A DNA stretch of 64,000 nt. It comes from Verrucomicrobiaceae bacterium. GTDB taxonomy: Bacteria > Verrucomicrobiota > Verrucomicrobiia > Verrucomicrobiales > Akkermansiaceae. The position numbers and the translations under genes are program-made. Where the stretch lies: contig JAIXOR010000003.1 in assembly GCA_027486655.1 (NCBI GenBank), positions 1-64,000 of the forward strand. Direction: 5' to 3'. This document shows, piece by piece, positions 43,198 to 64,000 of the stretch (positions are counted from its first letter, which is position 1; every line of letters starts with the position of its first letter). The notes under the pieces are model-generated. The model searched no databases. It was not told the origin of the DNA and was given only the letters and a program-made list of their open reading frames with translations.

Positions 43198-45330
43198 TCA
43201 GAAGCGGCGGCGGCGCAGCAGCGCCAGCGCACCCAGTCCGCCTAACAGCGCCGCGCCGGGCTCCGGAACGGCGGTGAAGTTCAGCATCAGGTTGTTTCCG
43301 CTCTGCGTGACCGAGAACGATCCGCCTGCCAGATCATTGCTGAATCCGGCGGCACCATTGTTCGCACCGGTCCAAATCACGAAATCCGAAGGATCGAAGC
43401 CGATGATTCCGTCCGTCGTGCTCGCAAGCGTCCAACTGTAGGAAGACGTATTGTTGAAACCGGAAGCGTTTCCACTCACGTCCGGCCCGGTCGATGAGAG
43501 GGTCCACAGATTGATGTTGAAGCCACCGGCGGACAAGGCGCTGAGATCGAGGGTGCCTGTAACGGCCACGGTATCGTAGCCGGAACCTGCACTGCCGGCT
43601 GCGTCAAGCACCTGCCAATTGTAGTCACCTCCATCCAACCAGGAAAGACTGCCTGATGAGAGCGTTCCCGGGCTGTTGCCGGGAGAGATCGTCCCGGCGA
43701 TGCTCATGGCTCCGGTCACCGATCCACTTCCGGAAATCGACTGTCCGGACGCAAGGGTGAATCCGGTCACCGCGGAGACATTGAAGTTTCCGTTGTTAAT
43801 GATCGTGGAACTTGCGATCGAGCCCCCGGCAGACAAGGCGAGGGTTCCCGCACTGATCACGGTGGAACCGGTGTAGGAATTGGCAGCCCCGAGGGTGAGC
43901 GTGCCGCCGCCGGTCTTGGTCAAGCCGCCCGTGCCGCTGAGCACGCCGCTGAGGCCGATGTCAAAACTCGCATTGGTCGCATCCGCCGCCCTGAAGGTGG
44001 CGACTCCACCGAGGGTGATCGGCTGGCTGGTCGTCCAGGACGCCTTGGCTCCGACCGTGGCACCAGTCACGCTGAAGTTCGAGGTGTAGGCGTTCGTGGA
44101 AACCACCGAAACGCCGCCGGATCCCACGTAAAGGACGGCACCGTTGTTGATGATCACATCGCCACGACTGGCGGCGGTCGATGTCGCCACCCCGTATCGG
44201 ATGGCCTCCGTGGTGGTGGTGCCACCGGTAAGCAACAATTGCGAACTGTTGGCGGTGGTGGTGTTGGTGCTGAGCTGAATGCCGCTGGCTCCTGTCACCG
44301 AAAGTGTGCCATTGCTGACCTGGAGGGTGCTCCAGCGGGTGTTGGTCGTGTTTCCGATGATGGCTGAGCCACCAATGGTCAGATCACCGCCATCGACGCG
44401 CGCGGTGGCCGAGCTGTTGCTGGTGCCGATGGTGAGGTTGTTGGTGATGCCGGCCGTGCCGCCGGTCACCACGAAGCCCGATGTCAGGGGCGCGGATGTC
44501 TGACCCGGATTCGCGGTGCGCGCGAGACTCACACTCGAGGCAGTGAATGTTCCGCCGCTCACCTTGATGAGTGAACCGTCGGTGGTCGATGTTCCCACAC
44601 CACCGTTGAAGTTCATCGTTCCAGACTGGAGCTCGAACTTGGCGTTGGTCGACGACGAGCCGTAGGTGGAACTGGTGTTCGAGTTGACGGTCGCACCATT
44701 GACGATGACCGATCCCGAAGTCGTGGCGCTGAGGGTGGTGATATTGGAAACTCCTCCGGTGAAGGTCGTGGTGGTACCCGAGCCGGTGGTCGTGATGTTC
44801 AAGGGGCTCACGCTGTTGGTGAGCGCTTTGCTGAAATTGATGGATCCGCCACCTGTGGCTGTGATCGTGGTCGTACCACCCTGGGTGGAGAGGGTGGTGT
44901 CGATGTTGAGGGTTCTTCCGGAAGGCACCGTGAACGACTGCGATGCGCTGGAGGCCGTCCGGAGGTTGCCCGCGCCGGAAATGGTCAGGTTGACGGTAGC
45001 CTGGCTCAGGTCGATACCCGCGGTGCCCAGCGTGAGTGTCCGGGTCGAATTGATGCCGAGTCCGACGTTTCCACCCGGGTTGCCGCTTGCATCACCGATT
45101 TTGATCCCCTGCCAGGCAGCGGTGGTTCCCAAATTGCTGGTGTTTGCAGCGGTGACCGTGTTGTTCCAAACCGCGCGGTCGGCACTGGTCGGGGCAACGG
45201 TTGTCCAGGAACCCGCAGTAGCAAGATCATTGGTGTTGTTCGCCTTGAAGATATCAGCGGCCTGGATTCCCTGGGACATGCCACCGGCGAAGGCCGCGGC
45301 AAGGAACACATTGAAAAATCGGGGTTTCAT
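43198..45330 (-). CDS. PATR-repeat (autotransporter-associated beta-strand) surface protein with PEP-CTERM anchor
   Basis: 710 residues from ATG 45330, with signal peptide FFNVFLAAAFAGGMSQGIQA. The body is a Gly/Ser/Thr-rich beta-helix with many short parallel strands (for example SGAGNLRTASSASQSFTVPS) and a clear PATR unit (LTKTGGGTLTLGAANSYTGS) near residue 500. The C-terminus is a PEP-CTERM signal: AVPEPGAALLGGLGALALL then RRRRF. No outer-membrane barrel domain follows, so it is not a type V autotransporter. An exosortase encoded elsewhere should anchor it. It is the last gene of the pectin cluster; the role may be adhesion to plant polymer or a scaffold (inference). Confidence 0.85.
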   Translation of the reverse strand: MKPRFFNVFLAAAFAGGMSQGIQAADIFKANNTNDLATAGSWTTVAPTSADRAVWNNTVTAANTSNLGTTAAWQGIKIGDASGNPGGNVGLGINSTRTLTLGTAGIDLSQATVNLTISGAGNLRTASSASQSFTVPSGRTLNIDTTLSTQGGTTTITATGGGSINFSKALTNSVSPLNITTTGSGTTTTFTGGVSNITTLSATTSGSVIVNGATVNSNTSSTYGSSSTNAKFELQSGTMNFNGGVGTSTTDGSLIKVSGGTFTASSVSLARTANPGQTSAPLTSGFVVTGGTAGITNNLTIGTSNSSATARVDGGDLTIGGSAIIGNTTNTRWSTLQVSNGTLSVTGASGIQLSTNTTTANSSQLLLTGGTTTTEAIRYGVATSTAASRGDVIINNGAVLYVGSGGVSVVSTNAYTSNFSVTGATVGAKASWTTSQPITLGGVATFRAADATNASFDIGLSGVLSGTGGLTKTGGGTLTLGAANSYTGSTVISAGTLALSAGGSIASSTIINNGNFNVSAVTGFTLASGQSISGSGSVTGAMSIAGTISPGNSPGTLSSGSLSWLDGGDYNWQVLDAAGSAGSGYDTVAVTGTLDLSALSAGGFNINLWTLSSTGPDVSGNASGFNNTSSYSWTLASTTDGIIGFDPSDFVIWTGANNGAAGFSNDLAGGSFSVTQSGNNLMLNFTAVPEPGAALLGGLGALALLRRRRF

Positions 45331-45443
45331 GAATGGGGTTCTCTGGGTTTTCGAGGAAACGGAACAAGCCCGTTTCCGGGATTGACGGTGGGATTGAAAA
45401 GCAGGGGCAGGTGAGCGGCCAATCACCCGTACGGGTTAGCGGG

Positions 45444-48400
45444 TTACTTCACGAAGCGAAGGCGGATGAATCCGCGCTCTGGTGGGGATGCGGGGAAGGT
45501 CTTGGTGGCGCGGACGGTTTCCGGGTCGGAGCCGGGATTGAGCACTTCGAGGGTGAGGGCTTCCCAGGATTGGAAGGTGGAACTGATTTCCGCATGGAAA
45601 CTCACGTCACCGAGGTGGGCCGGGCGCTGGAAGGTCATCGAGACCGAGTTGGCGTCCCGGCTGGCGGCCGGCTGTGGGGTGAAGGCGAGCGGCTGGCCGC
45701 CGAGGGCGTATTCGGCAAGGTTGGTGAGCCCGTCCGCATCCGGATCCGCATCGGCGGCGGACAAACCGGCAAGGATCTGGGCCGGGCTGAAGTTCGCGGT
45801 TTCCCACGATGAGAACGAGCGCGGGTTGATGACCAATGCGGCGCTGGCGCTGCCGGTGTGGGCGGGATCATCGACCGTGGCAACGACCGTGTAGGTGCCG
45901 GGAGCGGCTGGAGGAGTGGATGCGCCGTTGTAGGTGGTGACCACCTGGAGTCCTCCGGGATCGGTGGCGACACTGACCGGCTTGGGAGCACCGTCGTAGG
46001 TGGCGCTGAGGTTTTGCAGGGTGATGACCGCACTGGCTTTCACCACCGTGACAGCCGCGCTGTTTGAAAGCGCGCCGCTGGTGGCGGTGACTTGCCAGGG
46101 ACCACCCGCCGCGGTGGCGGAATAGACTCCGGAAGAGTTGATGGTTCCGCCGGTGCCTGTCGAACTCCAGAGGATCGTGGGATTGGCGATCGGTGAGCCG
46201 AACTGGTTGGAAACCACAGCGGAGAAGGAGGAAGTCCCGCCGACCGTCACGCTCGCCGAGCCCGGGCTCACGCTGATCTGGGTCGGTGTGGAAATGACGT
46301 TGACCACTGCCGTGCTGGTCACCGAGAGGCCGGGTCCGTCGGCAACGGTGACGGTGATCGAGTAGGAACCGGGAGCGCCGAAGAGGGCCGCGGCGTTCTT
46401 TGCAGCGTTGGTTCCATTCGGCGAGAAGGAGACGGCGGCGGGTCCGACGGCGGACCAGGTGTAGGTCAGCCCGGGTTCGCCCGCATCGTCGGTGGCGGAA
46501 ACCGCGAGTGACGTGCCGGTGGTAGTCACGTTGGAGGGAGTGGCGGTGGCGGCGCTGGCGATGACCGGCGCTTGGTTGAGCGCGCTGACCACGAGCCGCA
46601 CCTGGCCGATGGTGGAGGTGTTGACCACCGCGGCGTATCCGGCCGGGACGTTGCCGATGTTGAGTGTGTTGTTGACGAGCGTGCCGGTGTAGGTGGCAAG
46701 GGTGAAAGTGCCTGCGGAGAATCCGGACGCGGCGGAAAGATGAACGGTGCCGTCCAGCGTGAGGTTTCCGGTGACGGCGATGAGGTCGGATGTGGATCCG
46801 AGATCCGCCTCGATCACGGCGGTCGAGGAGAGCGTGAGACCGTTGGAAAGGGCAAGCGTGCCGGTGGGATTTCCCGGAGCGAGCGTGCCATGGCAGGTCA
46901 CGGCACCGGCGATGGTTCCGTTGCCGGCGAGGCTTCCAGCGGCGGAAACGGTGGTGGGACTGGCGGCGAGCGAGCCGGTGACGGTGAGTTTCCCTGCGGA
47001 AACGGTGGTGTTGCCGGTGTAGGTGCTGGCTCCGGAGAGCACGAGGTTTCCACTGCCGGTCTTGATGACGTGCACCAGCTTGGAGGTGCTGCCGTTGGCG
47101 ATGACCCCGGCGAAGCTGCTGTCGATGTTCTTTCCACCGATGGTGTAGGTGCAGCTCGACGAGCTGTTGCTGGAGACCATGCCGAGGGCGCTTCCCGTCT
47201 GGCCGGCGAGCGCACCGATCTTGTAGGCGCTCCCCTGTCGGGCGCTGAGGTTGCGTGTGCCCAGATCAAAGGTGGCGGCGGCGCTGCCGTCGAAGGTGGT
47301 GGAAAACAGGCGGAACGAACTGGTCCCTGTGAGATAAAAGGTTCCGGAGAATCCTGAAATGTCGCCCTCGAGGTCGAAGACGTTGGTGGCGTTCAGGGTG
47401 AGGTCGGCCGAGCCGGAAACATTGCGGATGGCATGGGCTCCTCCGCCATCGCCACCCGAGATCACGGATGGTGCGGTGACGACGATGGCGTTCTGTGGCG
47501 AGAGGGCGCCGGTGGCCCAGGTGCCGCCGTTGAGGGTGACCGCGCCGGAGCCGAGGGCGGCGGCATTCGAGATGGCGACCGTGCCCTGGTGGATGGTGGT
47601 TCCTCCGTCAAAGGTGTGCGCGCCGGACAGGGTGAGCGTGCCGGATCCGGATTTGGCCAGCGAGGCGGTGCCGGTGATCTGCCCGGCTCCGGAAATCGTG
47701 TAATTCTTGGCCGCATTCACCGCGACGGCGGCCGGTGACACATTGGCCGGCAGGCTGATGGCCGATGTGGCATTGCCCGAGTCGGTGAACGAGGGGCTGT
47801 CGCCTGTCTGATAGATCGCGGGTTGCGCACCGGCGGTCCAGTTGGCGGTGGAGCTGTCCCAGGTGAATCCATTGGCCCCGGTCCAGGTGATGGGCCCCGG
47901 CCCGCGGGGTGGCTCGGCGAAGGTGATGACAAGTTGACCGGCCGTGGCGGTGCTGAAGGTGGCGGTGAGCAGCGAGCCCGCGGGCGCTTCCCAGGTGAAA
48001 ACCGGAGTGCCCGAAAGCGTGCCGGAGTAGGTGAGTGCGATGTAGGCACCGGGAGCGGGAGTAAAACCCGGAGCCGCACGGACCACGGCTCCTCCGGCGA
48101 AGGACAGGTTTCCAACAATGGCAAGGGGCGCGGATCCGAGTTCGAGGGCACCGCCGGCCTGGATGCTGACGTTTCCGGTAAGGGTGCCGCTGCCGCCGAG
48201 AGTGCCGCCGGAAGAAACGGTGAAGGCGGAACCGCTGGTCGAGCCGGTGAGGCGGAGGCGACCGGCAGAAACCGTGGTGGCTCCGGTGTAGGTGGATGCG
48301 CCGGAAAGCGTGAGGGTTCCCGTGCCGGTCTTTGTCAGGGCGACCGGACCGGTGCCGTTGGTGAGGACACCGGCGAAAGTGCCATCCTCATTGCGGGCTC

Positions 48401-51400
48401 CCACCTGATAGGTGACGGTGCGCCCGGCGGTGAGGCCGCCGCGGAGTTGCGAAGCGGCGTTTCCTGTTAGATTTCCGATCGGGATGGTGAGGTTTCCCGT
48501 CATGGTCTTGTTGTAATACGCGTAAACATCCGCGCCGAGGTCGAGCAGGGCGGCCGGATATCCCGAGGAACTCTGGAAACGGAAATCGCCGCCATCCGCA
48601 TCCGCGATGACGAAGATGCGCCCGGTGAAAGCCGACCAATTCCCGATGACCTCGGTGCGCACATAAGGCGTGTAAAACGTGAAGTCGCCCCCGCCGGTGA
48701 GAGCCCCTGTGAGATTGCAGCGACCATCGGCATTGAGACGGCCGGCGGATCCGGCTGGCACGTGGATGGACCAGGAACTGGTCGCCCACGATGGAGTATC
48801 GATGTTGTCGGTCATCTGGAGCGTGCCGCCATTCAAGGTGAGGCCGCCAGTGCCGATGCCGGAAACATTGGCGGTGTCCGAAGCAAGCACGAGTTTTCCT
48901 TCCGAGACGAAGGTGCCGCCGGCGTGGGTGTTCGAGCCGGCGAGCACGAGGTTTCCGGCACCGGTTTTGACGAGGGCCCCGGCACCGGTGAGCTGGCCGG
49001 AGATTTGCAGGGAATTGGAGGCGGGAACCGAAATCGTCCCGCCGAGGCTGCCGAGGGTGAGCGAGCGGTTGGTGCTGGTCTGCTCGCCGACAAGGGCGAC
49101 CACGCCACCGTTGATGACAAGATTGGAAGCGGCGGTTCCCGCGGCTCCGATGGAGCTGGGCGAACCTCCGTCACCCAGATTTCCGACCGCCAGCGTTCCG
49201 CCGGTGATCGATACGGGACCGGTGAATGCATTGGTGGTGGTGATGGTCAGCACACCCGTGCCGGTCTTCGTCAAGCCGCCGGATCCGGAAAGCGATCCCA
49301 CTCCGCCAAAGGTGTAGTTGGTGTCCGCCGAGACGGTGATGCCGCCGACGGGCATCGCATGGTTGAGGGTGACGTTCGGGTTGGCGGATCCGCTGGAATC
49401 AAAGGTTACCGAGTCTCCGGAAACAAAGGTGTCTGGCGAACCGCCGCGGGACCAGTTGATGGTTCGGGCGATGTCCCACGCGTTTCCACCATTGCCGCCG
49501 GTCCAGGTGATGGAGGCCGCAGCGCGGGTGACCGGGACCGTGAGGGTGATCGCTCCCGACCCGACGTTGAGGGTGTGGGCCGTGCCCTCCGGCAGGGTGA
49601 GGGCGATGTTGGCGGCCGAACCTGTTAGAGAGCCTGCGTAGGTCAGCAGCGTGTAGGTCCCCGGGGCCAACGAGCCGTTGAGCGCGGTGACCACCATGTG
49701 AACCGTTCCGGAAAGATTGAGATTTCCAGCCACCTGGATGCGATCGCTCGGAACGGTGGTTCCTGAGGGATCGTTGGACAAATCCATTGCCAGGACCGCA
49801 CCATCCTCTGCCGTGAGGGAGGATCCGAGCTGGAGGGTGCCCGCGTTGCCCATGCCGCTTCCCGGGGTGATGGCACCGCGGTATCCCAGGGTGACCGGCT
49901 GGCTGATGGTGCCGGTGCCGGCCAGGCGTCCGCCGGTTTGGCCCATCGCGAGGGAACCACCCCAAGTGCCACCCCAGACGGTGACGGGACTGGCGGAAAG
50001 CTGGCCATTGACCACCAGCGCGCCGTCCCAGATCGTGGTCGCTCCGGTGAACGGATGGCTGCCGGTGAGGATGGTCCGGCCCTTGCCGGACTTCATGAGG
50101 GTCATCGACCCCGCCAGCGATCCCGAGCCACCGAGGGTGAAATCCTGGGGATTGAAGAACGAGACCGCGGCAGGACTGAGGGTGCCTGATAGAGCGATGC
50201 TCGAGGCGTTCGATCCGGAGATGTCAAACAGCACGCGGTTCCCCTGCGAGAACGCCGCCGATGCTCCCGCGTTGTTTTTCCAAGAAGCGGAAGCGCCCGC
50301 GTCCCACGTGTTTCCCGAGGACCAGGTGAGGTCGGTGGCCACCATCGGCGCGGGCGGCACGGCGGACGGCATGCCGAAGCCAAGATAGTAGTCCACATAA
50401 CTCGCCTGCACGTATCCCTTGGTGGTCGCCTGGCAGCGATACTGCGGGTTGTGCATCAGCGTGTAGAGCCGGTTGGTAGCGGCGTTGGTGGTGGTGTAGA
50501 TGCGCAGTGCGGTGCAATCGGTCTGGACGAACACGAGTTCCTCGCGCCAATCCCCGAGGATGTCCCCCCAGAAGGTGGGGCGGCCACCGTAGGCCTGCTC
50601 GATGCTGTAAGCCCCCCAATCGCTGTACATGGTCCAGACCCGGTCGGTGACACCGGTGGTCGCATTGAACTTGTTGATGACGGGGCTCATCGCGCCGCTG
50701 CCCGCGCCATCGATGAACTCGCGGCCGAGGTCGCCGTCCCACCAGAGTCCTTCCGGAGCCCAGACGTTGTTGGCATAGATCTGCTGGCCCTTGGCATTGT
50801 AGATACCCGGCTGGGTGGAATACATTTCGTAGCCCTTGTGCACGGAGTTGATATCAAGGGCGATGCCGCGGCCGACATCCACCATGCTGCCGGAATACCA
50901 TTTGCGGATCATGTTGCCATTACTAGAATCGTAGTAGGCGGTGGCCAGCATGGTCGCGTTGTTCTGCTGGATGGCGAAGGTTTCCAGTCCCGGACGGTCC
51001 GGGTTGATGTCCGCGATGTGGAAGCGGTCGCCGTGAACGAGCGGCGTGACGAAAAGCTGGGTGCCGTTGTCGTCGAGCGTGTAGCCGAGGTCGCAGATCT
51101 CGTCCTTGCCGTCGTTGTCCACATCCGCCACGCGGATCTGGTGGCCTTCCGCGCCTGGATTCACGTTGGGATCCATGGCCCAGGTCCAGCGCAGGGAAAG
51201 CGTGCCGTTCCGGTAGTCGAAGGCATTGATCACGCGGTAGAAATCCTGGTTGTCCGCGCGGTTGTTTCCATACATCACCACGCTCGGGCGCTTACCATCG
51301 AGGTAGGCGATCATCGCCTTGTTGGTCAGCACGCCGTGCACGGCCCAGGGGTTCGGCAGCGGCGCGCGTCCGAGTTCCACACCGGAGAGCCCGTCGATCA

Positions 51401-52187: not shown

Positions 52188-52270
52188 GGGTTTGCCGAGC
52201 CCCCGAGGCTTTCCAAGGGCTTCCGGGAACGATCCACCCATGTATGTTCCATGTCCATACCCCTGCCGGG

Positions 52271-52852
52271 TTAATGCCGAGGCTCTGGTTTCACCGCCCG
52301 GGTGGCTTCGAAAATTTTCACCCCCTCCTGGGAACATCGGAACAAAAACGCATCGTCCACCCGGTGAAGGCGCTTGCGGGCGAGTGGCTCGGCATCCCGC
52401 GTCGCCGCGTCACGGGTCAGATCGATCAGGCGGAAAGCGCCTTCATCGACACCGCCAAGCAGCTCGAAAAATGCCGCACGAAACCGGATCTGCGGATCAC
52501 CCGGGGGCATGTCGTAAACGAAAAGAAACGCGGCGTGCTCATCGAGTTCGAATACGCAATCCACTCGACGGGGCTTGAGCGCCTGATCACCGGCCTTGAG
52601 CGAGACCAGGCCTGGCGCCTTCTCCTTGAGGAGCGGTCGGGCCCTTTCCTGCGACGCCTGACCCGCATCTGCCGGGGCCTTTTCCCCGAGCAGCTTCCAG
52701 GCGAAGAGCATCGACGTGCGCAAGGTGATCTCGATGCGGTCCTTGCGAACGCGGATCTCGGTCTCGTTCTCAAGACCATCATGAGCCATGGCCGCGGACC
52801 AGGGGAGAACGGCCAACAGGGCGAGCAGGAGACGACGGAAAAGGTGCGTCAT
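52271..52852 (-). CDS. Small exported protein of unknown function inside the pectin cluster
   Basis: 193 residues, family not recognised. ATG 52852 begins a signal peptide (LFRRLLLALLAVLPWSAAMA) cleaved before HDGLENETEI. The mature part alternates charged beta strands and an Ala/Lys/Glu helix (RVRKDRIEITLRTSMLFAW, FELDEHAAFLFVYDMPPGD, FFELLGGVDEGAFRLIDLTR) and has two cysteines that could form a disulfide. It is 14 bases after the PL10 stop and 83 before PL11. The N-terminus after cleavage (AHD) is reminiscent of HupE-like periplasmic regions, but I do not rely on that. A pectin-specific role is guilt by association. Confidence 0.72.
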   Translation of the reverse strand: MTHLFRRLLLALLAVLPWSAAMAHDGLENETEIRVRKDRIEITLRTSMLFAWKLLGEKAPADAGQASQERARPLLKEKAPGLVSLKAGDQALKPRRVDCVFELDEHAAFLFVYDMPPGDPQIRFRAAFFELLGGVDEGAFRLIDLTRDAATRDAEPLARKRLHRVDDAFLFRCSQEGVKIFEATRAVKPEPRH

Positions 52853-52866
52853 GCAGGCTGCAGGAT

Positions 52867-53862
52867 TCAACGGTGAGGCCACTTGGCGTAGGTCTTGGCG
52901 ACGGATTCACCCCAGTTTCCATACCAGGCGTAGCCGTTGCGGCGCTCCTTGCCGATCTCGTTGTAGTTCCATTTTTTGACGCCATCACGATCGCAGAAAA
53001 ACGGACGATTGGTTTCCAGATCGTAGAACCGCGCCCACAAGGCCGGTGCTTGCGGGTCCGGCACGGCGGTGCGGACGCCGTCGATTTTTTCGACTTTCAA
53101 TCCCTGCACCTTGGACGACTCGAACCACGCCACACCTGCCTTGACGGCTGCGATGATTTCGGCCGAAGGCTTTTCAATCGACATGAGAAAACGGAGGATG
53201 CCCGCGCTTTCCGAGCCGCTGAGGGAGTCCAGTTCGTAGCTTCGTGCCACGGCAGGCTTGAGCGTGATCTCGTCATGCTGGGCACACCAGACGGTGGCCT
53301 TGCCATCGCGGACGACCTGGCACTTCAGGATGCAGCCGATACCGGCGTCGAAGGCCTTCCGCCCTGCGGCGCGGCGTTCCCCGCCGATGAAGTCGTAACG
53401 TTTTTCCGTGGTTGCATCACGAAGGAACTCGAGGATGCGCGTCATCGAGTTGTCATTGAAGGTGATATGGCGGTGATACTGCTTGCTGAGAGGAAAATAC
53501 TGCGGCCAGCCGCCGTTGGGAAACTGAGCTTCGAGGATGTGGTCATAGCCCTTGAGGAAGGCGTCGCGGCATGTCGGATCACCGGTCACCTCGAAGGCGC
53601 GGGCGAGGAAGCGCAGTTCGTCGGTGGTGGAACCGTTGTCGAAAGTGCCGGTCTTCTTCTTTTTCCCTGAGAAGGCCTTGCGCGAGTTGTCCTGGTTCTT
53701 CGGCCAACTGCCGGATTCGGCCTGCCACGAGAGCACATTGGAAACCGCGGCCTTGCCGGGTTCCGAGCGGAACCAGTCGTCCGGTTTTTCCAACAACTCG
53801 GATGGAAACGAGAAGGCGCAGGAAATGAGACTGAGGAACGTGAGGGTGATGCGGTTTTTCAT
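52867..53862 (-). CDS. Pectate lyase, PL10 family
   Basis: 331 residues from ATG 53862, with signal peptide RITLTFLSLISCAFSFPSE. ATG 53877 is an alternative that overlaps the PL4 stop as ATGA, implying coupling. PL10 landmarks are QAESGSWPKNQDNSRKAFSG, FDNGSTTDELRFLARAFEVT, LEAQFPNGGWPQYFPLSKQY with HITFNDNSMTRILEFLRD, WCAQHDEITLKPAVARSYEL, and the C-terminal YNEIGKERRNGYAWYGNWGE. PL10 enzymes cleave de-esterified homogalacturonan by beta-elimination, calcium dependent. Length is normal for a single-domain PL10. It probably works outside the cytoplasm on backbone regions between rhamnogalacturonan stretches. Confidence 0.93.
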   Translation of the reverse strand: MKNRITLTFLSLISCAFSFPSELLEKPDDWFRSEPGKAAVSNVLSWQAESGSWPKNQDNSRKAFSGKKKKTGTFDNGSTTDELRFLARAFEVTGDPTCRDAFLKGYDHILEAQFPNGGWPQYFPLSKQYHRHITFNDNSMTRILEFLRDATTEKRYDFIGGERRAAGRKAFDAGIGCILKCQVVRDGKATVWCAQHDEITLKPAVARSYELDSLSGSESAGILRFLMSIEKPSAEIIAAVKAGVAWFESSKVQGLKVEKIDGVRTAVPDPQAPALWARFYDLETNRPFFCDRDGVKKWNYNEIGKERRNGYAWYGNWGESVAKTYAKWPHR

Positions 53863-53873
53863 GGATGTGGAAG

Positions 53874-56800
53874 TCATGGAGGAAGGACGATCTGATAGAA
53901 AGCGCGACCGACGGGAGGCGCGGGATCGGTGAAGGAGGACGTGCTGCCGGAACCGGCAGCTTGAGTGGCGATGGGAACCCAGGGACCGGACGGCGAGCCC
54001 GCACGCTGGATCTGGAATTGCAGACCGGGTTTCGATGGCCACGAAATGTGGAAACCCGGGCCCGTACTCAAACTGGTCGCTTTGAAGGACTGCTGCGGGT
54101 TACCGGGATCGAGGCCGAGACGGAACTCCGTTTTGTCGGAAGAGCCATCTCCATCCAGATCGGCGACGCCGTCGCGGGACAAACTTTTGAAGTGCGCAGC
54201 TTCCCACGCGTCGGCCAAGCCATCTTCATCGAGATCGGGGAATGGATTCCCACCGGTGGTGAACTGAAGGGTCGGACGATTCGCCGCAGTGGCGTCCTCA
54301 TCGGCCTGGGTGAGATACTGGGTGCTGCCTCCATGAAGAATCAGCGTGATCAACCGGTCCGTGGCGAGTGCGTCGGTGAGAGCGGAGCGCAGGCTGGTCT
54401 CTCCCGTGCCGAAAGTGTCCACATTGCCCGCGCCGGTTCCATTCGTGAAGCTGAGCAAGGACGCCACGGAGCCCGGCGCGAAGTCGGTATCGGTCAGGGT
54501 CTCCGGCTGATAGGAATCCTCGATGAACGGATTCGCGGCATCATAACGAATCGAAGGCATGACCAGCGAGTCATCTCCCAGAAAAACCGAAAGCGTGCGC
54601 GATCGATTGCCGATGGTGGAGCTGTTGATGGTGAGCTTGAAGTTGGCAGCGACGACCGGTTTTACAGGAATGGACGCGAGGTCGAACTTGAACACAGAAA
54701 AAAAGTGGCGCGGCCCCGCAGGGTCCTGACGGACGAAGTTCCGTTTGTTGGAATCCACGGTGACGAAGCTCCCCGAGTAGAGTCCATTGCCGTCGACTTC
54801 ATACAGCGTGCCGTCGAAACCCGCGCCACCGACCGAAGTCACCGAGTGGGCGAGAGCCTCTGGAAAAGATCCCGGATCGACGGGAGACGTGCCGGCGAGG
54901 AACTCGGCGTAGGTATTGTAGCCGTCGCCATCGGAATCATCAAGCGGACCTGCCGTGGTGATCGCCGGATAATGTGAAAGCTCCCAGGCATCTTTGATCA
55001 GATCCAGATCCGCGTCCTCCACCACGAGCACCAGTTCCAAGCGCCCATTCGCCGTGACCAACGACGCGGCATAGGCCGTGGAAACCGGGGCATCGAGAAT
55101 GACTTCCGGCAAGCCGGACACGGAACCGCTGAAGGTAGCGATGAGATGGGACCCGGAACCGGGATCCGCTGGAGCGCGGATGGTCATGGCCCCGGGCAGC
55201 GCGAGGTTTCCGGTGATGGAAAGCGGAGCACTGGAAAGCTCAAGCACACCGCCTTCCTCGATCTGGACGTCGCCGGTGATCGAACCCGTGCCGCCAAGCG
55301 CTGCGTCCGCCGCCACGGAAATGGCGGATCCAGTCGTGGAACCGGTGATGCGCAAGGTCCCCCCGGAGACCCGCGTGGGCCCGGTGTGGGTATGGGTTCC
55401 TGCCAGGGTCCAGATGCCGTCTCCGGTTTTCTCAATCGCACAACGGGCGACCGCGGAACTGTCCCGGATGGTGCCGTGGAAGATCGAGTCATCCGCATTC
55501 CTGGAGCCGACTTTCCACGTGACGAGCGCGGCCGTAGCACCGGTCTCCGTCGCCTTGAGAACGGACGATGCGTTTCCACGGAGATCGCCGAGTGGTATGG
55601 CCTGGTTTCCTGTTAGAACGCAGTAGGCGTTGACCAGCGGACCAAGCTCCACCAATGCCTGGGGAAGCCCGAGGTTGTTGCCGACACGCCAGTCGCCGCC
55701 GTCAGTGTCGGTCAGGATGCTCAGGTTTCCGGAAAAACCCGACCAGTTTCCCATCACGCTGGCCCGGATATAGGGTGTGTGAAAGGTGAGGTTCCCTCCC
55801 CCGGAGAGGCTGCCGCAGAGGTCGACTCGTGAGCCGGCGTTGACCCGGCCGCTGGAGCCGATGGGCACCACGAGGTCCCAGAAGGACCGGTGGTTCGCGG
55901 TTAGATTGTTCCACATCGTGACAGTGCCGCCGTTGAGCGTCACCAGACCTGTTCCGAATCCGTAGCTGTTGGCGGTCGCGTTGCCGAGAACGACCGTGCC
56001 GGCATCGATGGTGGTGCCCCCATAGAACGAGTGAGCTGCGCCAAAGTTCAACGTGATGTTGTTGCGGGTGGTCACGGCGTTCGCCGAGAGGGTGATGGTG
56101 GTGGGACCATCCACGCTGAGAATGCGGGTGCCATGGGGGAAATCGTGCGCCGCACTGGAGCTGGCGTAGGCAAGCCCGGCGACGAGGCCGCTGCTGGAGG
56201 AAACCGTGACGACCGGCGAACCCGCGACAACACTGGCGGTGACCGCCTGCTGGAAGGGGCTGAGTGTGAGAGTGCCGTTGCCCGGTTTGAGAAGCTCGAA
56301 TGGGCCTGCGAGGGTCCCGCTGCCGCCGAGCGTGAAGGGTTTGGCGCTGGTGTTGGTAAAGGTCATGCGGCCCGGTTGAATGGTGCCGGACATGTTGACG
56401 GAGGGTGAATTCGATCCCGCATCATTGAAGATCGGACGATCGCCATCCTGATAGAAAACCGCGGGATTCGCGGTTCCGGAGACGCGCCAGTTGGTCGCCG
56501 CATTGTTCCAAAGATTGGATGAAACACCTCCCTTCCAATCCAGGTCACGGCCGGGCGGAAGCACCGGAGGATGGGGTGCCTCAAGACTGAGGTAGTCATA
56601 CATGAAGCCCGCCGTCGCACGGTTGGTGTGAACCTCATGATCGAGCGTGATCGTGTTGACCCCCGGACGAAGGCGGCTGGCTGGGATCGGGATGCGGACG
56701 TGGGAATACTTCGTCTGCACCGACTGCCTCATGAAGCTGGATGCCCCGGGCCGCGCGTTGGGCGGGGTGAAGGTGGCGAAGGCATTGTTGTCATTGACGC

Positions 56801-58580
56801 GCAGAATCTGGATCGAGTCTGCGGAGGCGTAGGCAATGGTGAGCCAATAGGTTCCGGGAATCACCTCGTTCAGTGGGAAGTTCAGGTTCCACTTCCACGG
56901 TGCGGTGCCCACGTAGTCCACGGTGTGGGAGAAGTTGAAATTCGTCGCCCAGTTTCCCGCGGCGACATCGTAGTTGTGGGGATTGGCAAACTCGTTTGCG
57001 TATTCCAGCCACAAGGCCGGTTTCGCATATTCATCGCCGTGGCGGAACTCCGCAGCGCTCCGGTCCGGGATGCCGATCTCCCACACCAGTGATCCGCCCG
57101 GGTGGTCCACCGTGAGCGGAATCTCTCCGAGGTTCTTGCTCTCGCCGGGCGCGAAAGTGTGCTGGCCGAGCCGGAACTCGCCGACCGCGCCGGTGCCGGG
57201 CGTTTCACCCGCGCTGTAAACATAGAGCTGATAGGTCTCCGCGCCGCCGTAGGTGGAGGTCGTCTGGATGTCTGGGATGGTAAAGTTTCCGGCGGCGTCG
57301 GCCCGGACCCAATACTGGTGGCGGTCGGCCTGGAACTGCCAGTTGTCCGACGAGTTCTCACCCGAGTCCGGAGCAGCGAGGCCCACCCAGGCACCGGCCG
57401 CACTCACTCCCGGGCGGAGCGGGTCGGTTAGAACGATGCGGCCTGTCAGACTGGCGCGCTGGGCCTGCGCCTGATAGGCCGGATGGGTAACCCACGCATA
57501 AGGCCAAGCGCCGGCCTCGGCCTCTCCCTGGGCCTTGGCATCCGTCCAGGCCTGGGCTCCGGTGGGCAGGCCGTTGAAGTAGAGGCCCCAGGGCCCGATG
57601 ATCTTGGTCCACGCCCGCCCCGCGGGGATGGAAATGCCGCGATTGCTGTAGTGATTGCTGATCGGCTGGTGATAGACCAGCCCCCAGCCGTGGACGTATT
57701 CGCGACGGGTGGGGCCGTTGTTACCGTATTCCTGACTGCCCGCGACCACCCAGCTGCCGACGTCATTGATGTCACTGGCTCGCCCCCAGGTTTTGTAAAT
57801 GTTGTGCGGGATGTTGTAGGAGTATTTTCCGGTAAGCTGACCCGTGAAGGGACCGCTGGTGAGGCGGTTGATCTCACCCGGAAGGCCGGTCACCCACACC
57901 GCGTTCTTGATGTCTCCGTAACTGGGCTCCAGCGAGTTTCTCCGGAGCCGGTTGCCATTCAGGCTGAGACCGAGCTTCACGTTGTCGTCGATGTAGAGGT
58001 TCTCGCAAAGAAAGTCCGTCGCATTGTGGGCAATGGGCCAGATCATCTGGATGAACTGGAGATCCGCCTGCGGATAGGCAAGCGGGTGGTTCAGCGCGGC
58101 ATGGATGTAGAGCGTCGATTCACCCCGGCCTAGGGTGTAATGAAGCTCCACATCCATCGGCAACTGGTGAATCGAGGGCGTGTAAGGTCGCTGGTAGACA
58201 AGATCGAGACGGTCCGCATTGCCGACAGTGGCCTGGTAGGCGGTGCCTGCGGTGCCGTCCGGATACCAGTAATAGTAGATCTCGGTGTGGTTGCCAAAAC
58301 CACCGGTGCCCACACCGGACTGGCTCACCATTTCCAAGCCGTTGGCCGCAGGAGTGCCGGACAGACCGGGCTTGAGGAAGCGGATCGACTGCACGTTGCC
58401 AGTCGGGCTGATGATCGCGCGAATGATCCCGTTGTCGAGAAAGCGGCAGGTCTTGCTCCGGTAGGTCACGGTTCCCGAGGTCACCGGTGCGGTGACGAGG
58501 GTGGTGAATCCACCGGGTTCGTTGGCCCGTAGCCATGCACACGGCAGACAAACCAACAGAATTGCAAGAATCCGGATCAT
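53874..58580 (-). CDS. Rhamnogalacturonan lyase (PL4) fused to PATR repeats and a DNRLRE-like domain
   Basis: 1568 residues from ATG 58580, with signal peptide RILAILLVCLPCAWLRA. A PL4-like N-terminal super-sandwich (about 20-370) contains NGLEMVSQSGVGTGGFGNHT, ALNHPLAYPQADLQFIQMIW and YVHGWGLVYHQPISNHYSN. A fibronectin III/rhamnogalacturonase-B-like domain (about 373-490) contains ASLTGRIVLTDPLRPGVSAA, and a jelly-roll domain (about 493-665) contains TIAYASADSIQILRVNDNN. The plan matches fungal-type rhamnogalacturonan lyase (EC 4.2.2.23). Then PATR-like units near 840 and 1047, a DNRLRE-like region (about 1260-1445), a thrombospondin-3-like calcium segment (DLDEDGLADAWEAAHFKSLS) and a beta module ending AFYQIVLPP. 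The stop overlaps the alternative PL10 start. PL4 in bacteria is less common than PL11. Confidence 0.85.
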   Translation of the reverse strand: MIRILAILLVCLPCAWLRANEPGGFTTLVTAPVTSGTVTYRSKTCRFLDNGIIRAIISPTGNVQSIRFLKPGLSGTPAANGLEMVSQSGVGTGGFGNHTEIYYYWYPDGTAGTAYQATVGNADRLDLVYQRPYTPSIHQLPMDVELHYTLGRGESTLYIHAALNHPLAYPQADLQFIQMIWPIAHNATDFLCENLYIDDNVKLGLSLNGNRLRRNSLEPSYGDIKNAVWVTGLPGEINRLTSGPFTGQLTGKYSYNIPHNIYKTWGRASDINDVGSWVVAGSQEYGNNGPTRREYVHGWGLVYHQPISNHYSNRGISIPAGRAWTKIIGPWGLYFNGLPTGAQAWTDAKAQGEAEAGAWPYAWVTHPAYQAQAQRASLTGRIVLTDPLRPGVSAAGAWVGLAAPDSGENSSDNWQFQADRHQYWVRADAAGNFTIPDIQTTSTYGGAETYQLYVYSAGETPGTGAVGEFRLGQHTFAPGESKNLGEIPLTVDHPGGSLVWEIGIPDRSAAEFRHGDEYAKPALWLEYANEFANPHNYDVAAGNWATNFNFSHTVDYVGTAPWKWNLNFPLNEVIPGTYWLTIAYASADSIQILRVNDNNAFATFTPPNARPGASSFMRQSVQTKYSHVRIPIPASRLRPGVNTITLDHEVHTNRATAGFMYDYLSLEAPHPPVLPPGRDLDWKGGVSSNLWNNAATNWRVSGTANPAVFYQDGDRPIFNDAGSNSPSVNMSGTIQPGRMTFTNTSAKPFTLGGSGTLAGPFELLKPGNGTLTLSPFQQAVTASVVAGSPVVTVSSSSGLVAGLAYASSSAAHDFPHGTRILSVDGPTTITLSANAVTTRNNITLNFGAAHSFYGGTTIDAGTVVLGNATANSYGFGTGLVTLNGGTVTMWNNLTANHRSFWDLVVPIGSSGRVNAGSRVDLCGSLSGGGNLTFHTPYIRASVMGNWSGFSGNLSILTDTDGGDWRVGNNLGLPQALVELGPLVNAYCVLTGNQAIPLGDLRGNASSVLKATETGATAALVTWKVGSRNADDSIFHGTIRDSSAVARCAIEKTGDGIWTLAGTHTHTGPTRVSGGTLRITGSTTGSAISVAADAALGGTGSITGDVQIEEGGVLELSSAPLSITGNLALPGAMTIRAPADPGSGSHLIATFSGSVSGLPEVILDAPVSTAYAASLVTANGRLELVLVVEDADLDLIKDAWELSHYPAITTAGPLDDSDGDGYNTYAEFLAGTSPVDPGSFPEALAHSVTSVGGAGFDGTLYEVDGNGLYSGSFVTVDSNKRNFVRQDPAGPRHFFSVFKFDLASIPVKPVVAANFKLTINSSTIGNRSRTLSVFLGDDSLVMPSIRYDAANPFIEDSYQPETLTDTDFAPGSVASLLSFTNGTGAGNVDTFGTGETSLRSALTDALATDRLITLILHGGSTQYLTQADEDATAANRPTLQFTTGGNPFPDLDEDGLADAWEAAHFKSLSRDGVADLDGDGSSDKTEFRLGLDPGNPQQSFKATSLSTGPGFHISWPSKPGLQFQIQRAGSPSGPWVPIATQAAGSGSTSSFTDPAPPVGRAFYQIVLPP

Positions 58581-58755
58581 GAAATGGAGCGAATCAGAGA
58601 TTTGGAAAGCCTTCCGACGAGAAAGAATGGATGATCGGTAAATAGCACCTTGCCCATAATGATGAAAGGCCAGGAGGCGAAAACGAGTCCCCCAATTGGA
58701 TTAGAGGCGAGAAACCGAAGCAGCGAGCCTGCCTGCGGGGCACCTTGGTTCGGGT
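58581..58755. other. Gap between GH95 and PL4 genes
   Basis: 175 bases, the longest gap in the cluster, without a gene or clear hairpin. A second promoter for PL4 and downstream genes could lie here, but none was recognised. Confidence 0.3.
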
Positions 58756-61218
58756 TCAAGGGGCGACGATCTGATAACGCTTGCCAGCCTTTGCCTCGAA
58801 CTTGGTCAAGGTCCTTTGGAGGTCCCCGACCTTCAGCGGCTCGGACGTGAAGCGGATGCCGTCGACCTTGATCGGAAACTCCGTGCATACCACGCAGGTG
58901 CCATCCCTGGCCGCATGAAGCGTCGCAGTGGAGAGACGCGCTTGTTTCCACTCCATGTCCACCGTGTAGCCGCCCGCCGCGCGCAGGCCCTTGACGCGGC
59001 CGGACTCCCAGGCATCCGGAAGGGCGGGAAGCAACTGGAGCATGCCGAGATGGCTCTGCAGCAACATTTCGGTTATCCCTGCCGTGCCGCCGAAGTTGCC
59101 GTCGATCTGGAAGGGGGGATGGGCGCAAAGCAGATTCGGATAAGTGCCGCCCTTCTCCTTGAAACTGACCGATCCGTAGTTGTCGGACATCTGGAACAAC
59201 TCGCCCAACAACTTGTGCGCGTGATTGCCATCCAGCAGACGCGCCCAGAAGCAGATCTTCCAAGCCTTGCTCCAGCCGGTTCCACCATCGCCGCGCATTT
59301 CGAGAGTCTTTCGGCAGGCGTCGGAAAACCTCGCGTCGATCAACGGCGAGATCTCAGCGGCCGGGTGCAGGCCGTAAAGATGGGAAACATGGCGGTGCGC
59401 AGGATCGAAATCCTCGTAATCTTCGATCCACTCCTGCAATTGCCCGTGGCTTCCGATGCGCTGGGGACGCAGTTTCACCAGCTGGCCTTCGAGTTTCTTT
59501 CTGAAATCCTCGTCCTTTCTGAGAATCTTTGACGCCTCAATGACACTCGAAAACAAATCGCGGATGATCGACATGTCCATCGTCGAGCCGACACTGATTT
59601 CCACCCTCCTGCCATCGTGCTTGAACGAATTCTCCGGAGACGTCGACGGAGCCGTGACAAGGAAGCCGTCTTTACCGGGGATCAGGAAATCGCTGCAGAA
59701 CTCCGCAGCTCCCTTCATGAGAGGATAAGCGGTTTCTGACAGAAATACGGTGTCTTGTGAAAACTGATAGTGTTCCCACAAATGGCGGCACAACCATGCT
59801 CCGGCCATTGGCCAGCAACTCCACCGCGGCACCCCTCCCCCGCCTCCGGCGGGATTGCAGGCTCCCCAGGGATCCGAATTGTGGTGCACGCACCAACCGC
59901 CGCAGTTGTAGAAATCCCTTGCAGCGGCAGCCCCCGTCACAGACAGCCGTCGGATCTGTTTGAAAAGCGGCTCATGCATCTCCGCGAGGTTGCATGATTC
60001 CGCAATCCAGTAGTTCATCTCAAGATTGATGTTGGTCGTGTAGTTCGAACGCCAGGTGGGGCGGAGATCCTTGTTCCAGAGTCCCTGGAGATTCGCCGGA
60101 ACCTCGCCACGGGAACAGGAAATGAGCAGGTATCGGCCATACTGGAAATACAGTGCTTCCAGCCCCGGATCCGGTTTGCCCTTATTGTGGCTTACGAGAC
60201 GCTCGTCGGTTGGAAGATGTGAGGAATCCGTGGTTCCCAGCTCAAGGTCCACGCGATTGAAGAATTTCTGATAGTCCCTGACGTGCGCTTCCCTTAGCTG
60301 TTGGAATGTCTTCTGGGAAGCGGCCTTCATTGCATTGGCAGCGATCAACGATTCGTCCCTGCCATCCCGATCCGGGCACTTGTCAAAGCCATTGTAGGAA
60401 GACCCGGCGGTGACCAGGATCATGACCTCCGAAGCGCCGGCAACATGAATGCCAGCCGCATCCGAAGTAACGGTTCCATCCTTGGGAATCACCTTGATAT
60501 GATACTGGAATCGGACGCCCTTGCATCCCTCGGCATCATCGAAGACCAGGGGTTTCGGGCTCTTCGGGTCATCCCCGCGAATGCGGGTTTTGCCCTTCAC
60601 AATGAACTCATTGCTGCCCTCCGGCACATTCAGGTGTCGAAGCTGGCAAACGCTCACGATGTCGAAGTCGAGGGCCCCGTTTTTCGAGGCCTTCAGGTTC
60701 ATCACCACCGCCTGATCGGGATTGGAAACGAAGGCCTCGGTCGAGTAGTCCACGCCCTCAAAGGTGAAACGAGAGGAAGCGATGCCGGTGGCAAGGTCCA
60801 ACTCACGATGATAGCCGGTGAAGTTTCCCGTGCGGCGGAAGTTCAATAGCATGTCGCCCATCGGCTGATAGGCTTCACAGCTCACCCCCTGCATCTTTTT
60901 CTGGATGGCGGTGGCATCCTCGAAGCGGTTTTCAAACAAAGCCTTGCGGATGTCGTCGAGATGGGTGTGGGCATCCGGATTGTTGTGAAGATTGACCGGA
61001 CCACCGCTCCAAAGCGTTTGCTCGTTGAGATGGATGGTTTCCTTGAAGGGCTGGCCGTAGACCATCGCGCCCAAGGAACCATTCCCGAGAGGCAGCGCCT
61101 CGTTGAAGTGTCCGGCTGGCTTCTGATACCAAAGCTTCAGATCACCAGCCTCCGACCGCTCCGCCAGTGCCGGGAAAAGAACAACCATCAAGCTTGTGAA
61201 ACAGAGTCTTATCTTCAT
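58756..61218 (-). CDS. GH95 alpha-L-fucosidase/alpha-L-galactosidase
   Basis: 820 residues from ATG 61218, with signal peptide [21 protein letters not shown]-terminal domain landmarks are [20 protein letters not shown] and [20 protein letters not shown]. The (alpha/alpha)6 barrel carries the Asn pair of [16 protein letters not shown] (about 393), Glu in PSTSPENSF (about 526), and Asp in [20 protein letters not shown] (about 704). These correspond to the catalytic Asn, Glu and Asp of the inverting Bifidobacterium AfcA enzyme. It removes terminal alpha-1,2-L-fucose or L-galactose, probably from pectin or hemicellulose side chains. It follows the esterase gene by 19 bases. Confidence 0.94.
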
Positions 61219-61237
61219 GGAATCAACCGATTGAAGT

Positions 61238-62701
61238 TCAAGGATCCGCCGGGCGGTGAATGTTCACCGGCCAGTCGTCGGTGCGGAACGAACGCGCCGG
61301 GAGCCCGCCCGCATTGACGAGGTTCGGATTCGCCCGTTCATTCCATGCAAAGCGGACGGCAACGGGTTTGGGAACCTTTTTGGAACTAACGAAGACGTAT
61401 CCGCTGCGGATCGTTGCCTCGGCGGGATGAAACACACGATCGTCGCCCGCCAAAGTGAACTCACCGGGTGGCTGCCGATCTTTCGTGCGCAGTCCTCCCG
61501 CGTGATCAAACTTGAGGGCCACCTTGTCGCCTTGTACCCGCATCTCCTTGAAAACCGGTCCGGAGTCCACCACGTCCTTCACGCCATAGGTGCGGGCAAG
61601 AGCGATCCGGGCAAGCCGATCACCGACGTCCTTCTTGTTAGTGGGGTGAATGTCGCCCAACTGAGCCACGGTATCGGTGATCACCGCCATTCCGGTGTTG
61701 GGGATGGAGAGCGCTTTGGCTTGCGCCTCCCAGAACATGGGCAGCGCCTCGGCGGAATAGGGTTTCGGTATCTTCCTAGCGGAGTACGTGTGAGGAGCGA
61801 GTTGGACGTAATAGAACGGAGCCTCCGGCAGCTTCCAAACAGACCGCCAACCCGAGATCAAGGCGCGCATTTTGTCGGCGTAGATCATGCCATCGTTCGC
61901 CATCAGATTGGACTCCCCCTGATACCAGAGAAATCCTCGGAGCGCATAGGGTGCCAGCGGCTTGATCATCGGATCATACAAGCCGCCGATCCTGACATCG
62001 CCCAGCTTCCGGTCCCCTGCGGCGGCTTTGGCGATATCCTCGAGTCCGGCGATTCCCTGATAGGCTTCCGGTGGCGTCCACAGCTCAATGCGGGTCCCAC
62101 CGACACTCGAATGAATGAGACCGACCGGAACATCCAGCTTCGCCTGCACTTCGCGGCCGAAGAAATAGGCGGCGGCCGAAAAGCTCATTTGGTTCACCAC
62201 CTCGGAGCTGCATGGATGCCAGCGCATCGTGAGATCGTTTTCCTGCGCCCGACCGCCCCTCGGCATTTGAAAAACGCGAAGGTTTGGATGATTGGCTTCC
62301 CGGATTTCCTTCTCGGCGTTGTCGGTAGGGCGTTGTCCTTTGCGTTCGCCAAGTGGCTTCTCCATGTTCGACTGCCCCGAACAAAGCCAGACCTCGCCGA
62401 CCAGCACATCGTCGAAACGAATCTCATTGGTGCCTGAGACCAAAAGCACCCTCGGAGCCGAACTTGCGGCAAGGGGTGGAAGTTTCACCTGCCATTTCCC
62501 ATCGCTTCCCGCGATCGAATGGGATTCGTTCCCTGCAAACTTCACCGTGACTTTCTCACCCGCATTTGCGGTCCCCCAGATCGGAATCGTTTGATCACGC
62601 TGAAGCACCATGTGGGAACCAAACACAGGAGGACACTTCACTTCAGCACGGGCAAGGAAGGGCCATCCTGCTAGACTCAGGAAAATGACTGTGTGTTTCA
62701 T
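61238..62701 (-). CDS. Sialate O-acetylesterase-like (SGNH) carbohydrate esterase
   Basis: 487 residues from ATG 62701, with AGAAGG upstream and signal peptide [19 protein letters not shown]. An N-terminal beta domain ([20 protein letters not shown]) precedes the SGNH esterase domain: block [17 protein letters not shown] with nucleophile Ser near residue 109, [25 protein letters not shown], and the Asp-His of [20 protein letters not shown]. Family members remove O-acetyl groups from sialic acid or xylan/pectin sugars. In this neighbourhood plant polymer acetyl groups (pectin) are the likely target (inference). It lies 53 bases after the GH29 stop. Confidence 0.9.
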
Positions 62702-62754
62702 AAAAAACCTTCTATTGTTGAAAAGCATGTGACGGATGCCAGGACATTCCCCAT

Positions 62755-64000
62755 TCATTCGCGAACAGGATCCAGAACCACCTTTCGAAGGCGAAACAAT
62801 TCCGCGCCGCCAACCTCCACGGCACCGACCCGGAGAACGTGTTTGCCCGGCTCCAGTGAAACCCTGCCAAGTGATTCGCTCACCGCGCGCCCAATCCGGA
62901 CATTCTTCGAAAACCGCTCTCCCGCCAAAGTGACGGCATAAGACCCGCCCGCTCCGGTGTTGGCCGCGGCAAGCTCTTTCCCGGCGTCACCCTCGACCAA
63001 GCGGTTCGTCGTTGTCGGCGCGGAGGCGTCGTAGATGACGGAGACATCAAACACCGCTTTTTCTGTCAGCCTGACCGACCAACTTTCAGCAGCAGTGGCA
63101 TCGATCCAGTTCACCGACCAGGCGTCGCCGATTCCGCGTCCGACACGATAGGCCGCCGAGCCTTCAAGTTTTCCATCGAGCACGCTCAGGGTATTCCGCC
63201 CGATTGCTGGCAAAACCAATCTCGATTCGTCGGTGACTGGCGGAGCCTCACATTCAAGAGCGATCACCGAGTTATCTGGGTCCGGGGGACCGGCAGGAAG
63301 ACCGGTGAGAACCACATCGAAATCATTCAACCGCTTCACCGCGATTGCCTGCGCTGGAGCACTTAGCAACCTCGCCTTCTTCACGCCGGTCTTGAGTCCA
63401 CTGACAAGCAGTTCGCCGTTCTTCGGCCACTCGAAAACATGGAGATACAGGGTGGAGCCTTTGAGTGTGGATTCCCCCGTCCAGGTCTGGCGCGGCAACG
63501 GCGTGCGGGTCGTGCCACGGATCGATTCGCCATTGATCTTCCACCACGCTCCGATGCCTTCGAAGACTTTGACATCCGCGGGATCCACCGCGCCATCCGG
63601 ACGCGGTCCCATGTTGAGAAGCACATTTCCTCCGCGAGAAGCGGCCTTTGCAAGCATCTGGGTGAAATGCCCCGGCTTCTTGTGAGATTTATCCTTTGAA
63701 TTGTAACCAAAGGATTCGTTTGTCGTCGGCACGCCCTCCCAATCACCGTCCTTCGGCGCGAACTCACCCGGCTTGTCGCCGGTATTGACGTAGTCGGTCA
63801 GCTTGAGCAACCCGGTATCGACATCGGCGAAGATGCGGCCGTTGATGACGATATTGGGATCGGCTTTGCGCACCGCAGCGAAAATGCGGAGATTCTCCTC
63901 CGGAGGAAGCTTGTGGGGGGTGTCGAACCACAGGATATCGGGCTGATAGTTCCGGATCAGTTCCAGAATCTGAGGGATCGCTTTTTCATCCACATACTTC
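62755..64000 (-). CDS. GH29 alpha-L-fucosidase, N-terminus outside the window
   Basis: 415 residues are visible; the coding sequence continues beyond 64000, so start, signal peptide and the first half of the catalytic barrel are missing. The visible part begins KYVDEKAIPQILELIRNYQ and contains the nucleophile Asp in PDILWFDTPHKLPPEENL, where the usual residue after Asp is Gly, then GDWEGVPTTNESFGYNSKDK and GGNVLLNMGPRPDGAVDPAD, all typical of GH29. The C-terminal beta domains (about 150-415 of the visible part) include YDASAPTTTNRLVEGDAGKE and a jelly-roll CBM-like end. GH29 retains configuration and removes alpha-1,3/1,4 or other fucosyl groups. It is the first visible gene of the pectin cluster. 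Confidence 0.92.
   Translation of the reverse strand, partial: KYVDEKAIPQILELIRNYQPDILWFDTPHKLPPEENLRIFAAVRKADPNIVINGRIFADVDTGLLKLTDYVNTGDKPGEFAPKDGDWEGVPTTNESFGYNSKDKSHKKPGHFTQMLAKAASRGGNVLLNMGPRPDGAVDPADVKVFEGIGAWWKINGESIRGTTRTPLPRQTWTGESTLKGSTLYLHVFEWPKNGELLVSGLKTGVKKARLLSAPAQAIAVKRLNDFDVVLTGLPAGPPDPDNSVIALECEAPPVTDESRLVLPAIGRNTLSVLDGKLEGSAAYRVGRGIGDAWSVNWIDATAAESWSVRLTEKAVFDVSVIYDASAPTTTNRLVEGDAGKELAAANTGAGGSYAVTLAGERFSKNVRIGRAVSESLGRVSLEPGKHVLRVGAVEVGGAELFRLRKVVLDPVRE

Follow-up and report, generated by a model that had tools for sequence, protein, structure and literature searches.

How might a bacterium without SusC/SusD retain large pectin-degrading enzymes at its surface? What substitutes for this pair at the verrucomicrobial outer membrane is posed as an open question in PMC8857213. 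The locus described here comes from a Luteolibacter-like member of Verrucomicrobiota. The stretch of DNA analyzed, hereafter called the window, comprises 64,000 nucleotides at the start of a 147 kb contig, and the genome measures 5.33 Mb; window and contig positions coincide. We interpret the window as holding the lower part of a 13-gene operon of exported enzymes that act on pectin.

Gene content and boundaries of the cluster

An earlier note on the window had listed eight genes: GH29, an SGNH esterase, GH95, PL4, PL10, an exported protein, PL11 and a PATR-repeat protein. All eight are present on the minus strand with short gaps and one terminator, as domain matches, the list of gaps and a stem-loop bear out, and the profiles for PL4, PL10, PL11, GH29 and GH95 each match the gene to which the family had been assigned. 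The gene count had to be raised, since the window edge cuts GH29 and the cluster continues to contig position 83865, giving 13 genes over 40.7 kb, all on the minus strand.

At the downstream end, a PATR-repeat protein with a signal peptide and a PEP-CTERM-like C terminus (VPEPGAALLGGLGALALLRRRRF) is encoded at 43198..45330 (PF12951, 40.8 bits). Beside it lies a PL11 rhamnogalacturonan lyase of 2247 amino acids (45444..52187; PF21348, 277 bits; PF18370, 78 bits; PATR, 140 bits), which also carries PKD/MBG modules and a C-terminal domain, and which aligns with the solved structure of YesW (2z8r) at 274 bits over residues 24-617. A small exported protein without a Pfam match (52271..52852) is followed by a PL10 pectate lyase that has no repeats (52867..53877; PF09492, 351 bits). 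The latter scores 221 bits against the solved structure 1gxm and preserves the ARxYELxSLSGSES segment. The downstream of two PL4 rhamnogalacturonan lyases (53874..58580) shares an ATGA overlap with PL10 and combines catalytic-family domains with PATR repeats (40 bits) and a C-terminal domain of the type called B below. Its domains II and III exceed their cut-offs (PF14683, 84 bits; PF14686, 29 bits), and PF06045 falls exactly at its cut-off with 22.8 bits; the search against solved structures returned no match for this protein. The remaining genes of the window encode a GH95 enzyme of the alpha-L-fucosidase family (58756..61218; PF22124, 599 bits; PF14498, 220 bits; PF21307, 88 bits), a SASA-type carbohydrate esterase (61238..62758; PF03629, 73 bits) and a GH29 alpha-L-fucosidase. 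The GH29 gene occupies 62755..64000 in the window and 62755-64650 in full (PF01120, 243 bits for the full gene), and it overlaps the esterase gene by four bases provided that the first ATG is taken as the start.

Five more genes lie beyond the window edge, upstream of GH29. They encode GH78 (contig 64658-67378), a DUF4450 protein (67375-70902) for which the solved-structure search gave no match, a pectate-lyase-like protein with PATR repeats (70963-75843), a PL4-PATR protein in which PL4 domains I, II and III score 61.5, 83.7 and 111 bits (75840-81557), and a two-domain GDSL+SASA esterase (81607-83865). The pectate-lyase-like protein is called PL1-like here because it matches the solved pectate lyase 9buj with 91 bits; the label does not come from a Pfam model. 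PF09284 gave no match, and its control gave none either.

Most neighbors overlap or nearly touch. The gaps among the 13 genes are -4, -4, 7, -4, 19, -4, 14, 49, 60, 83, 113 and 175 bases, including four 4-base overlaps and, as the widest, the 175 bases between GH95 and the downstream PL4, and the cluster is probably transcribed as a single RNA. A strong intrinsic terminator on the minus strand (43121..43159) lies 3′ of the last gene, where a stem-loop of about -25 kcal/mol is followed by TTTTCTTTT (43159-43121); it overlaps the 3′ end of a convergent plus-strand ORF (42680-43147). A pattern scan for sigma-70-type promoters and terminators performed at chance level, and this simple scan overlooked the real terminator. 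The sole Rfam match in the window is a tRNA.

The families present support the earlier reading of homogalacturonan and rhamnogalacturonan I (RG-I) as targets. The two PL4 enzymes and PL11 would cut RG-I, PL10 and the PL1-like protein would cut the homogalacturonan backbone, and GH78, GH95 and GH29 together with three esterase domains would trim rhamnose, fucose and acetyl groups. From sequence, we infer that pectin is the probable substrate and that it may also induce the operon. Polysaccharide utilization loci (PULs) for RG-I in Bacteroidota carry a similar set of RG-I lyases, GH78, fucosidase-family enzymes and esterases. Unlike them, the present cluster holds no SusC/SusD pair, the mark of a Bacteroidota-type PUL, and no recognized glycan-binding lipoprotein or sensor, and it contains giant repeat-tailed lyases. 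An algal or microbial polysaccharide rich in fucose and rhamnose, instead of plant-type pectin, is an improbable target. GH29 and GH78 are indeed frequent in verrucomicrobial loci for fucose/rhamnose algal glycans (PMC8857213), and the window PL11 has its nearest named relative in Luteolibacter marinus (77% identity). However, the pectin-backbone families PL4 (twice), PL11 and PL10 are joined here by a pectate-lyase-like protein, and no sulfatase was found in the cluster.

The earlier note had also described the system as self-contained. Neither the 13 genes nor the genes adjoining them include SusC/SusD, a transporter or a regulator; within the cluster there is likewise no TonB or sugar transporter and no recognized unsaturated-uronide hydrolase. 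One flank consists of an SDR dehydrogenase and citrate synthase, and the other of ORFs resembling, as judged by eye, an aminopeptidase and an M20-type peptidase, followed by DnaG. Because the genes on both flanks are unrelated and the cluster has no transporter or regulator, it is better described as an enzyme operon that is not self-contained. Extending the sequence past position 64000, as had been suggested, thus added five cluster genes but yielded neither a transporter nor a regulator.

The absence of SusC/SusD from the cluster was correctly noted, and it extends to SusD in the whole genome, where SusD_RagB had no match and a Bacteroides control was positive. However, its presentation as an alternative to the Bacteroidota Sus arrangement cannot be taken as special to this locus. 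Polysaccharide clusters without SusCD are already published for Verrucomicrobiota, members of Akkermansiaceae are among the published sets, and this absence is usual for the phylum (PMC8857213, PMC11980603). Our locus resembles those clusters in its contiguous, co-localized genes for exported GH, PL and CE proteins and in having no SusCD or TonB. It differs in being a pectin operon in which four lyases bear PATR tails and in having no sugar transporter, and the passages searched in the same two papers mention neither such tails nor the C-terminal domain discussed below.

Repeat tails and known export routes

Four lyases of the operon carry fused PATR repeats, namely both PL4 enzymes, the PL1-like protein and PL11. 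The expectation of lyases fused to surface repeats therefore held for PL4 and PL11 and failed for PL10. The PL11 tail (46980..50105, minus strand) contains six PATR units, and the repeat region of the downstream PL4 spans 55347..56054 on the same strand. The tails of the four lyases are mutually homologous, with about 30-40% identity across long stretches. The repeats are not confined to this operon, since at least 150 matches occur genome-wide. In 42 genome stretches plus the window, the sample on which all passenger counts are based, we found 73 PATR ORFs with very diverse passengers, among them pectinesterase, GH30, peptidase M66 and RCC1 repeats. The C termini of these ORFs fall into two groups, 20 with PEP-CTERM and 51 with a domain like that of the lyases, while two ORFs run off their stretch.

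PATR (PF12951/TIGR02601) is the passenger-associated repeat of autotransporters, which would make type V secretion by an own or shared beta-barrel an obvious route for these proteins. However, none of the cluster proteins has a barrel, and the whole genome contains one autotransporter barrel against at least 150 PATR matches. This sole barrel belongs to a protein without a significant PATR match. Classical autotransporter export was therefore rejected, and the notion that PATR passengers depend on a barrel, largely refuted, is extremely improbable.

PEP-CTERM signals, first seen in Verrucomicrobiota (PMC4960237), were also considered. The genome has this system, including three exosortases, and uses the signal at the ends of about 20 of 73 PATR proteins and probably at that of the last gene of the operon. 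In contrast, the PEP motif, hydrophobic stretch and basic cluster are absent from the C termini of the four lyases, and PEP-CTERM anchoring of these enzymes was rejected on that basis. For the last gene (43198-45330), the earlier identification as a PATR/PEP-CTERM protein stands with respect to the repeats and the intact motif, although the PF07589 score of 17.2 bits is below the cut-off of 20.7.

The type IX secretion system (T9SS) sorting models TIGR04183 and PF18962 do not match the C-terminal domains of the window, and identical scans detect the sorting domain in a Bacteroidota homologue described below. A search of the genome for SprA gave no match, nor did it give any in the control genomes. 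Secretins are present in the genome.

A C-terminal domain shared by the lyases

All four PATR lyases terminate in a C-terminal beta domain (CTD) without a match to any Pfam or NCBIfam model. Where the earlier note had the lyases held in place by their beta-helix repeats, the repeats form the tails, and the possible holder is this unnamed domain, not a barrel or a PEP-CTERM signal. In PL11 it is a predicted beta-sandwich at 45447..45728 (minus strand), scoring 66.7 bits against a CTD profile in whose building PL11 was included. Two types can be distinguished, type A in PL11 and a distantly related type B at the ends of the PL4 and PL1-like proteins; the type-B profile was built from four sequences and yields internal matches too. 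A Trp and a Phe are nearly invariant in the domain.

Genome-wide, the CTD profile gives 101 matches. Of 58 matches to type A, 57 lie at the very C-terminal end of the protein, and reversed sequences give none. In cross-validation, 44 of 51 withheld members were found again; the window PL11 and one PL4 of the cluster are among the seven that were not, which marks the ends of the cluster's proteins as outliers within the CTD family. Other genomes in a sample of the phylum have few copies of type A (0-11), so either the profile is tuned to this lineage or the domain is not universal. Some carriers of type A have no PATR repeats, which makes it unlikely that the CTD simply caps the ends of PATR solenoids.

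An AlphaFold2 model of the PL11 CTD is a beta-sandwich with an overall pLDDT of 77. Fold searches place it closest to FN3 and CBM21 sandwiches, weakly so (best Foldseek E value 1.6e-3, best Z score 9.0), and this likeness makes a carbohydrate-binding role possible. T9SS sorting domains are not among the fold matches listed for the CTD, an observation that carries no weight either way. Our literature search, conducted outside subscription journals, found no paper that describes PATR-fused lyases, this CTD or, for Verrucomicrobiota, repeats called PATR or "autotransporter-associated". We consider the repeat tails, the CTD and the exchange of terminal domains described next to be new, in distinction to verrucomicrobial clusters without SusCD, which PMC8857213 and PMC11980603 already document.

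Exchange of terminal domains and its implications

The window PL11 belongs to a 19-member clade (support 100/96) whose members are all PATR-tailed and, by record titles, all from Verrucomicrobiota. Among the PL11 loci of other groups, 60 of 61 have no PATR on PL11; the loci compared are the best 80 of a motif-seeded search, a sample and not a census. Fusion of PL11 to PATR is typical of Verrucomicrobiota and the rule for this PL11 clade. A second PL11 subfamily is PATR-fused too in other genomes of the class, and the present genome has a second PL11, without a tail, on contig 42. The Luteolibacter marinus locus carries PL1-like-PATR and PL10 genes beside PL11-PATR, and in another Verrucomicrobiaceae genome PL4-PATR directly follows PL11-PATR, which points to partial conservation of the cluster core.

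Homologues of the small exported protein adjoin PL11 in three other Verrucomicrobiota genomes. In one related genome the homologue is located between PL11-PATR and a gene for an ABC-transporter ATPase, which it overlaps by four bases, and in two further genomes it lies divergently beside PL11-PATR. The ATPase is predicted to be of the sugar-importer type, and this arrangement provides one lead for uptake.

One Bacteroidota PL11, from Carboxylicivirga linearis, has a PATR tail and is collinear with the window PL11 over residues 1-1334 of its 1510, with 37% identity. Its tail scores 312 bits against the window PL11 tail versus 113 bits for the best other PATR protein in the fetched stretches. 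Its catalytic domain groups with Bacteroidota PL11 sequences (89/87) on a long branch whose placement is unsure. The C terminus of this protein is a T9SS sorting domain of type A (PF18962, 29.6 bits; TIGR04183, 33.6 bits; each above its cut-off), which occupies the place of the verrucomicrobial CTD. This replacement on a homologous PL11-PATR protein, a single natural case in one Bacteroidota protein, is the best evidence for the CTD as a sorting or anchoring signal. The ends of PATR proteins thus alternate among PEP-CTERM, the CTD and the T9SS domain, which suggests that the three may be alternative sorting signals. Like T9SS sorting domains, the CTD is a beta domain of about 75-100 amino acids that stands at the very C-terminal end of a variety of exported proteins, and the two have equal positions on the homologous lyases, although the CTD has no sequence match to the T9SS models.

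Could the CTD instead be a carbohydrate-binding or structural module on PATR lyases that are merely secreted and not anchored? The FN3/CBM21-like predicted fold agrees with this idea, substrate binding would profit lyases acting on insoluble cell walls, and verrucomicrobial CAZymes are reported to be secreted for the most part (PMC11980603). However, we regard it as rather unlikely given the near-exclusive location of type A at the extreme C terminus, the occurrence of PATR on passengers as different as peptidase M66, pectinesterase and RCC1 repeats, the alternation of the CTD with PEP-CTERM among PATR proteins, and its substitution by a T9SS domain in the Bacteroidota homologue.

We infer a sorting role for the CTD, and the arrangement that we moderately favor for the locus as a whole is built on it. 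The four large lyases would be exported by their signal peptides and then cross the outer membrane by a separate route that involves neither an autotransporter barrel nor SusC/SusD. Each would bear a long PATR beta-solenoid as a stalk, the C-terminal beta-sandwich most likely would serve as the sorting or anchoring signal, and the catalytic heads would be displayed outside the outer membrane; this surface location is a prediction from domain architecture. The PATR protein of the last gene would be sorted separately by the PEP-CTERM/exosortase route, and uptake and regulation would be encoded elsewhere in the genome. A more general proposal, which we advance tentatively as a serious possibility somewhat short of probable, is that Verrucomicrobiota possess a C-terminal sorting signal of their own. 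The CTD, with about 100 copies, would bring barrel-less enzymes on PATR stalks to the surface through a putative export and anchoring machine that operates in parallel to PEP-CTERM/exosortase and fills the role that T9SS signals have in Bacteroidota.

The widespread combination of enzyme, stalk and terminal domain, together with the T9SS exchange in another phylum, makes part of the SusCD question testable by a few fusion proteins. The architecture also suggests how bacteria without a Sus uptake system may retain such enzymes at their surface.

C-terminal domains of the PATR proteins

The unnamed C-terminal domain, a predicted beta-sandwich that ends the four PATR-tailed lyases of the operon, has approximately 101 matches across the source genome (for example in stretches L044, L061, L064 and L076), where it alternates with PEP-CTERM as the terminus of PATR proteins. 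Small-genome relatives from the same family carry zero to five copies. One copy lies in a frame reported with a single in-frame TAG stop (G000:C17:85554-85853), and this PATR gene may be in decay. This genome has just one protein with an autotransporter barrel, a 2017-aa open frame (L105; G000:C37:1-6051) that contains many near-repeats and lacks PATR.

Tailed PL11 lyases outside the Luteolibacter branch

PL11 with a PATR tail also occurs in Carboxylicivirga linearis of the Bacteroidota (L172:10001-14533), where the tail is homologous to its verrucomicrobial counterpart and the protein terminates in a T9SS sorting domain. A PATR-tailed PL11 is likewise present in a MAG labelled Akkermansia muciniphila (L123), and it clusters with IMCC26134-like Verrucomicrobiota, outside the Luteolibacter branch. 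This placement may reflect a mislabelled MAG, contamination or transfer.

Neighbours of PL11 and the DUF4450 protein

Genes for PL11 in Verrucomicrobiota are repeatedly adjoined by one for a small exported protein (window 52271-52852; L111:842-1510; L095:10500-11054; L096:11077-11640), for which a Pfam search gave zero matches. In L111, it is flanked by an ABC ATPase gene on one side and the PATR-tailed PL11 on the other. Just past the window edge, the pectin operon encodes a DUF4450 protein of 1175 aa (contig 15, 67375-70902; L001:7376-10903) that has no relatives among solved structures and is a candidate uncharacterised glycoside hydrolase. Elsewhere in the genome, an untailed PL11 on contig 42 (L097:12616-18164) adjoins genes for a GntR/periplasmic-binding-type regulator and a BNR-repeat/laminin-G protein, and this region is possibly a separate, regulated pectin locus.
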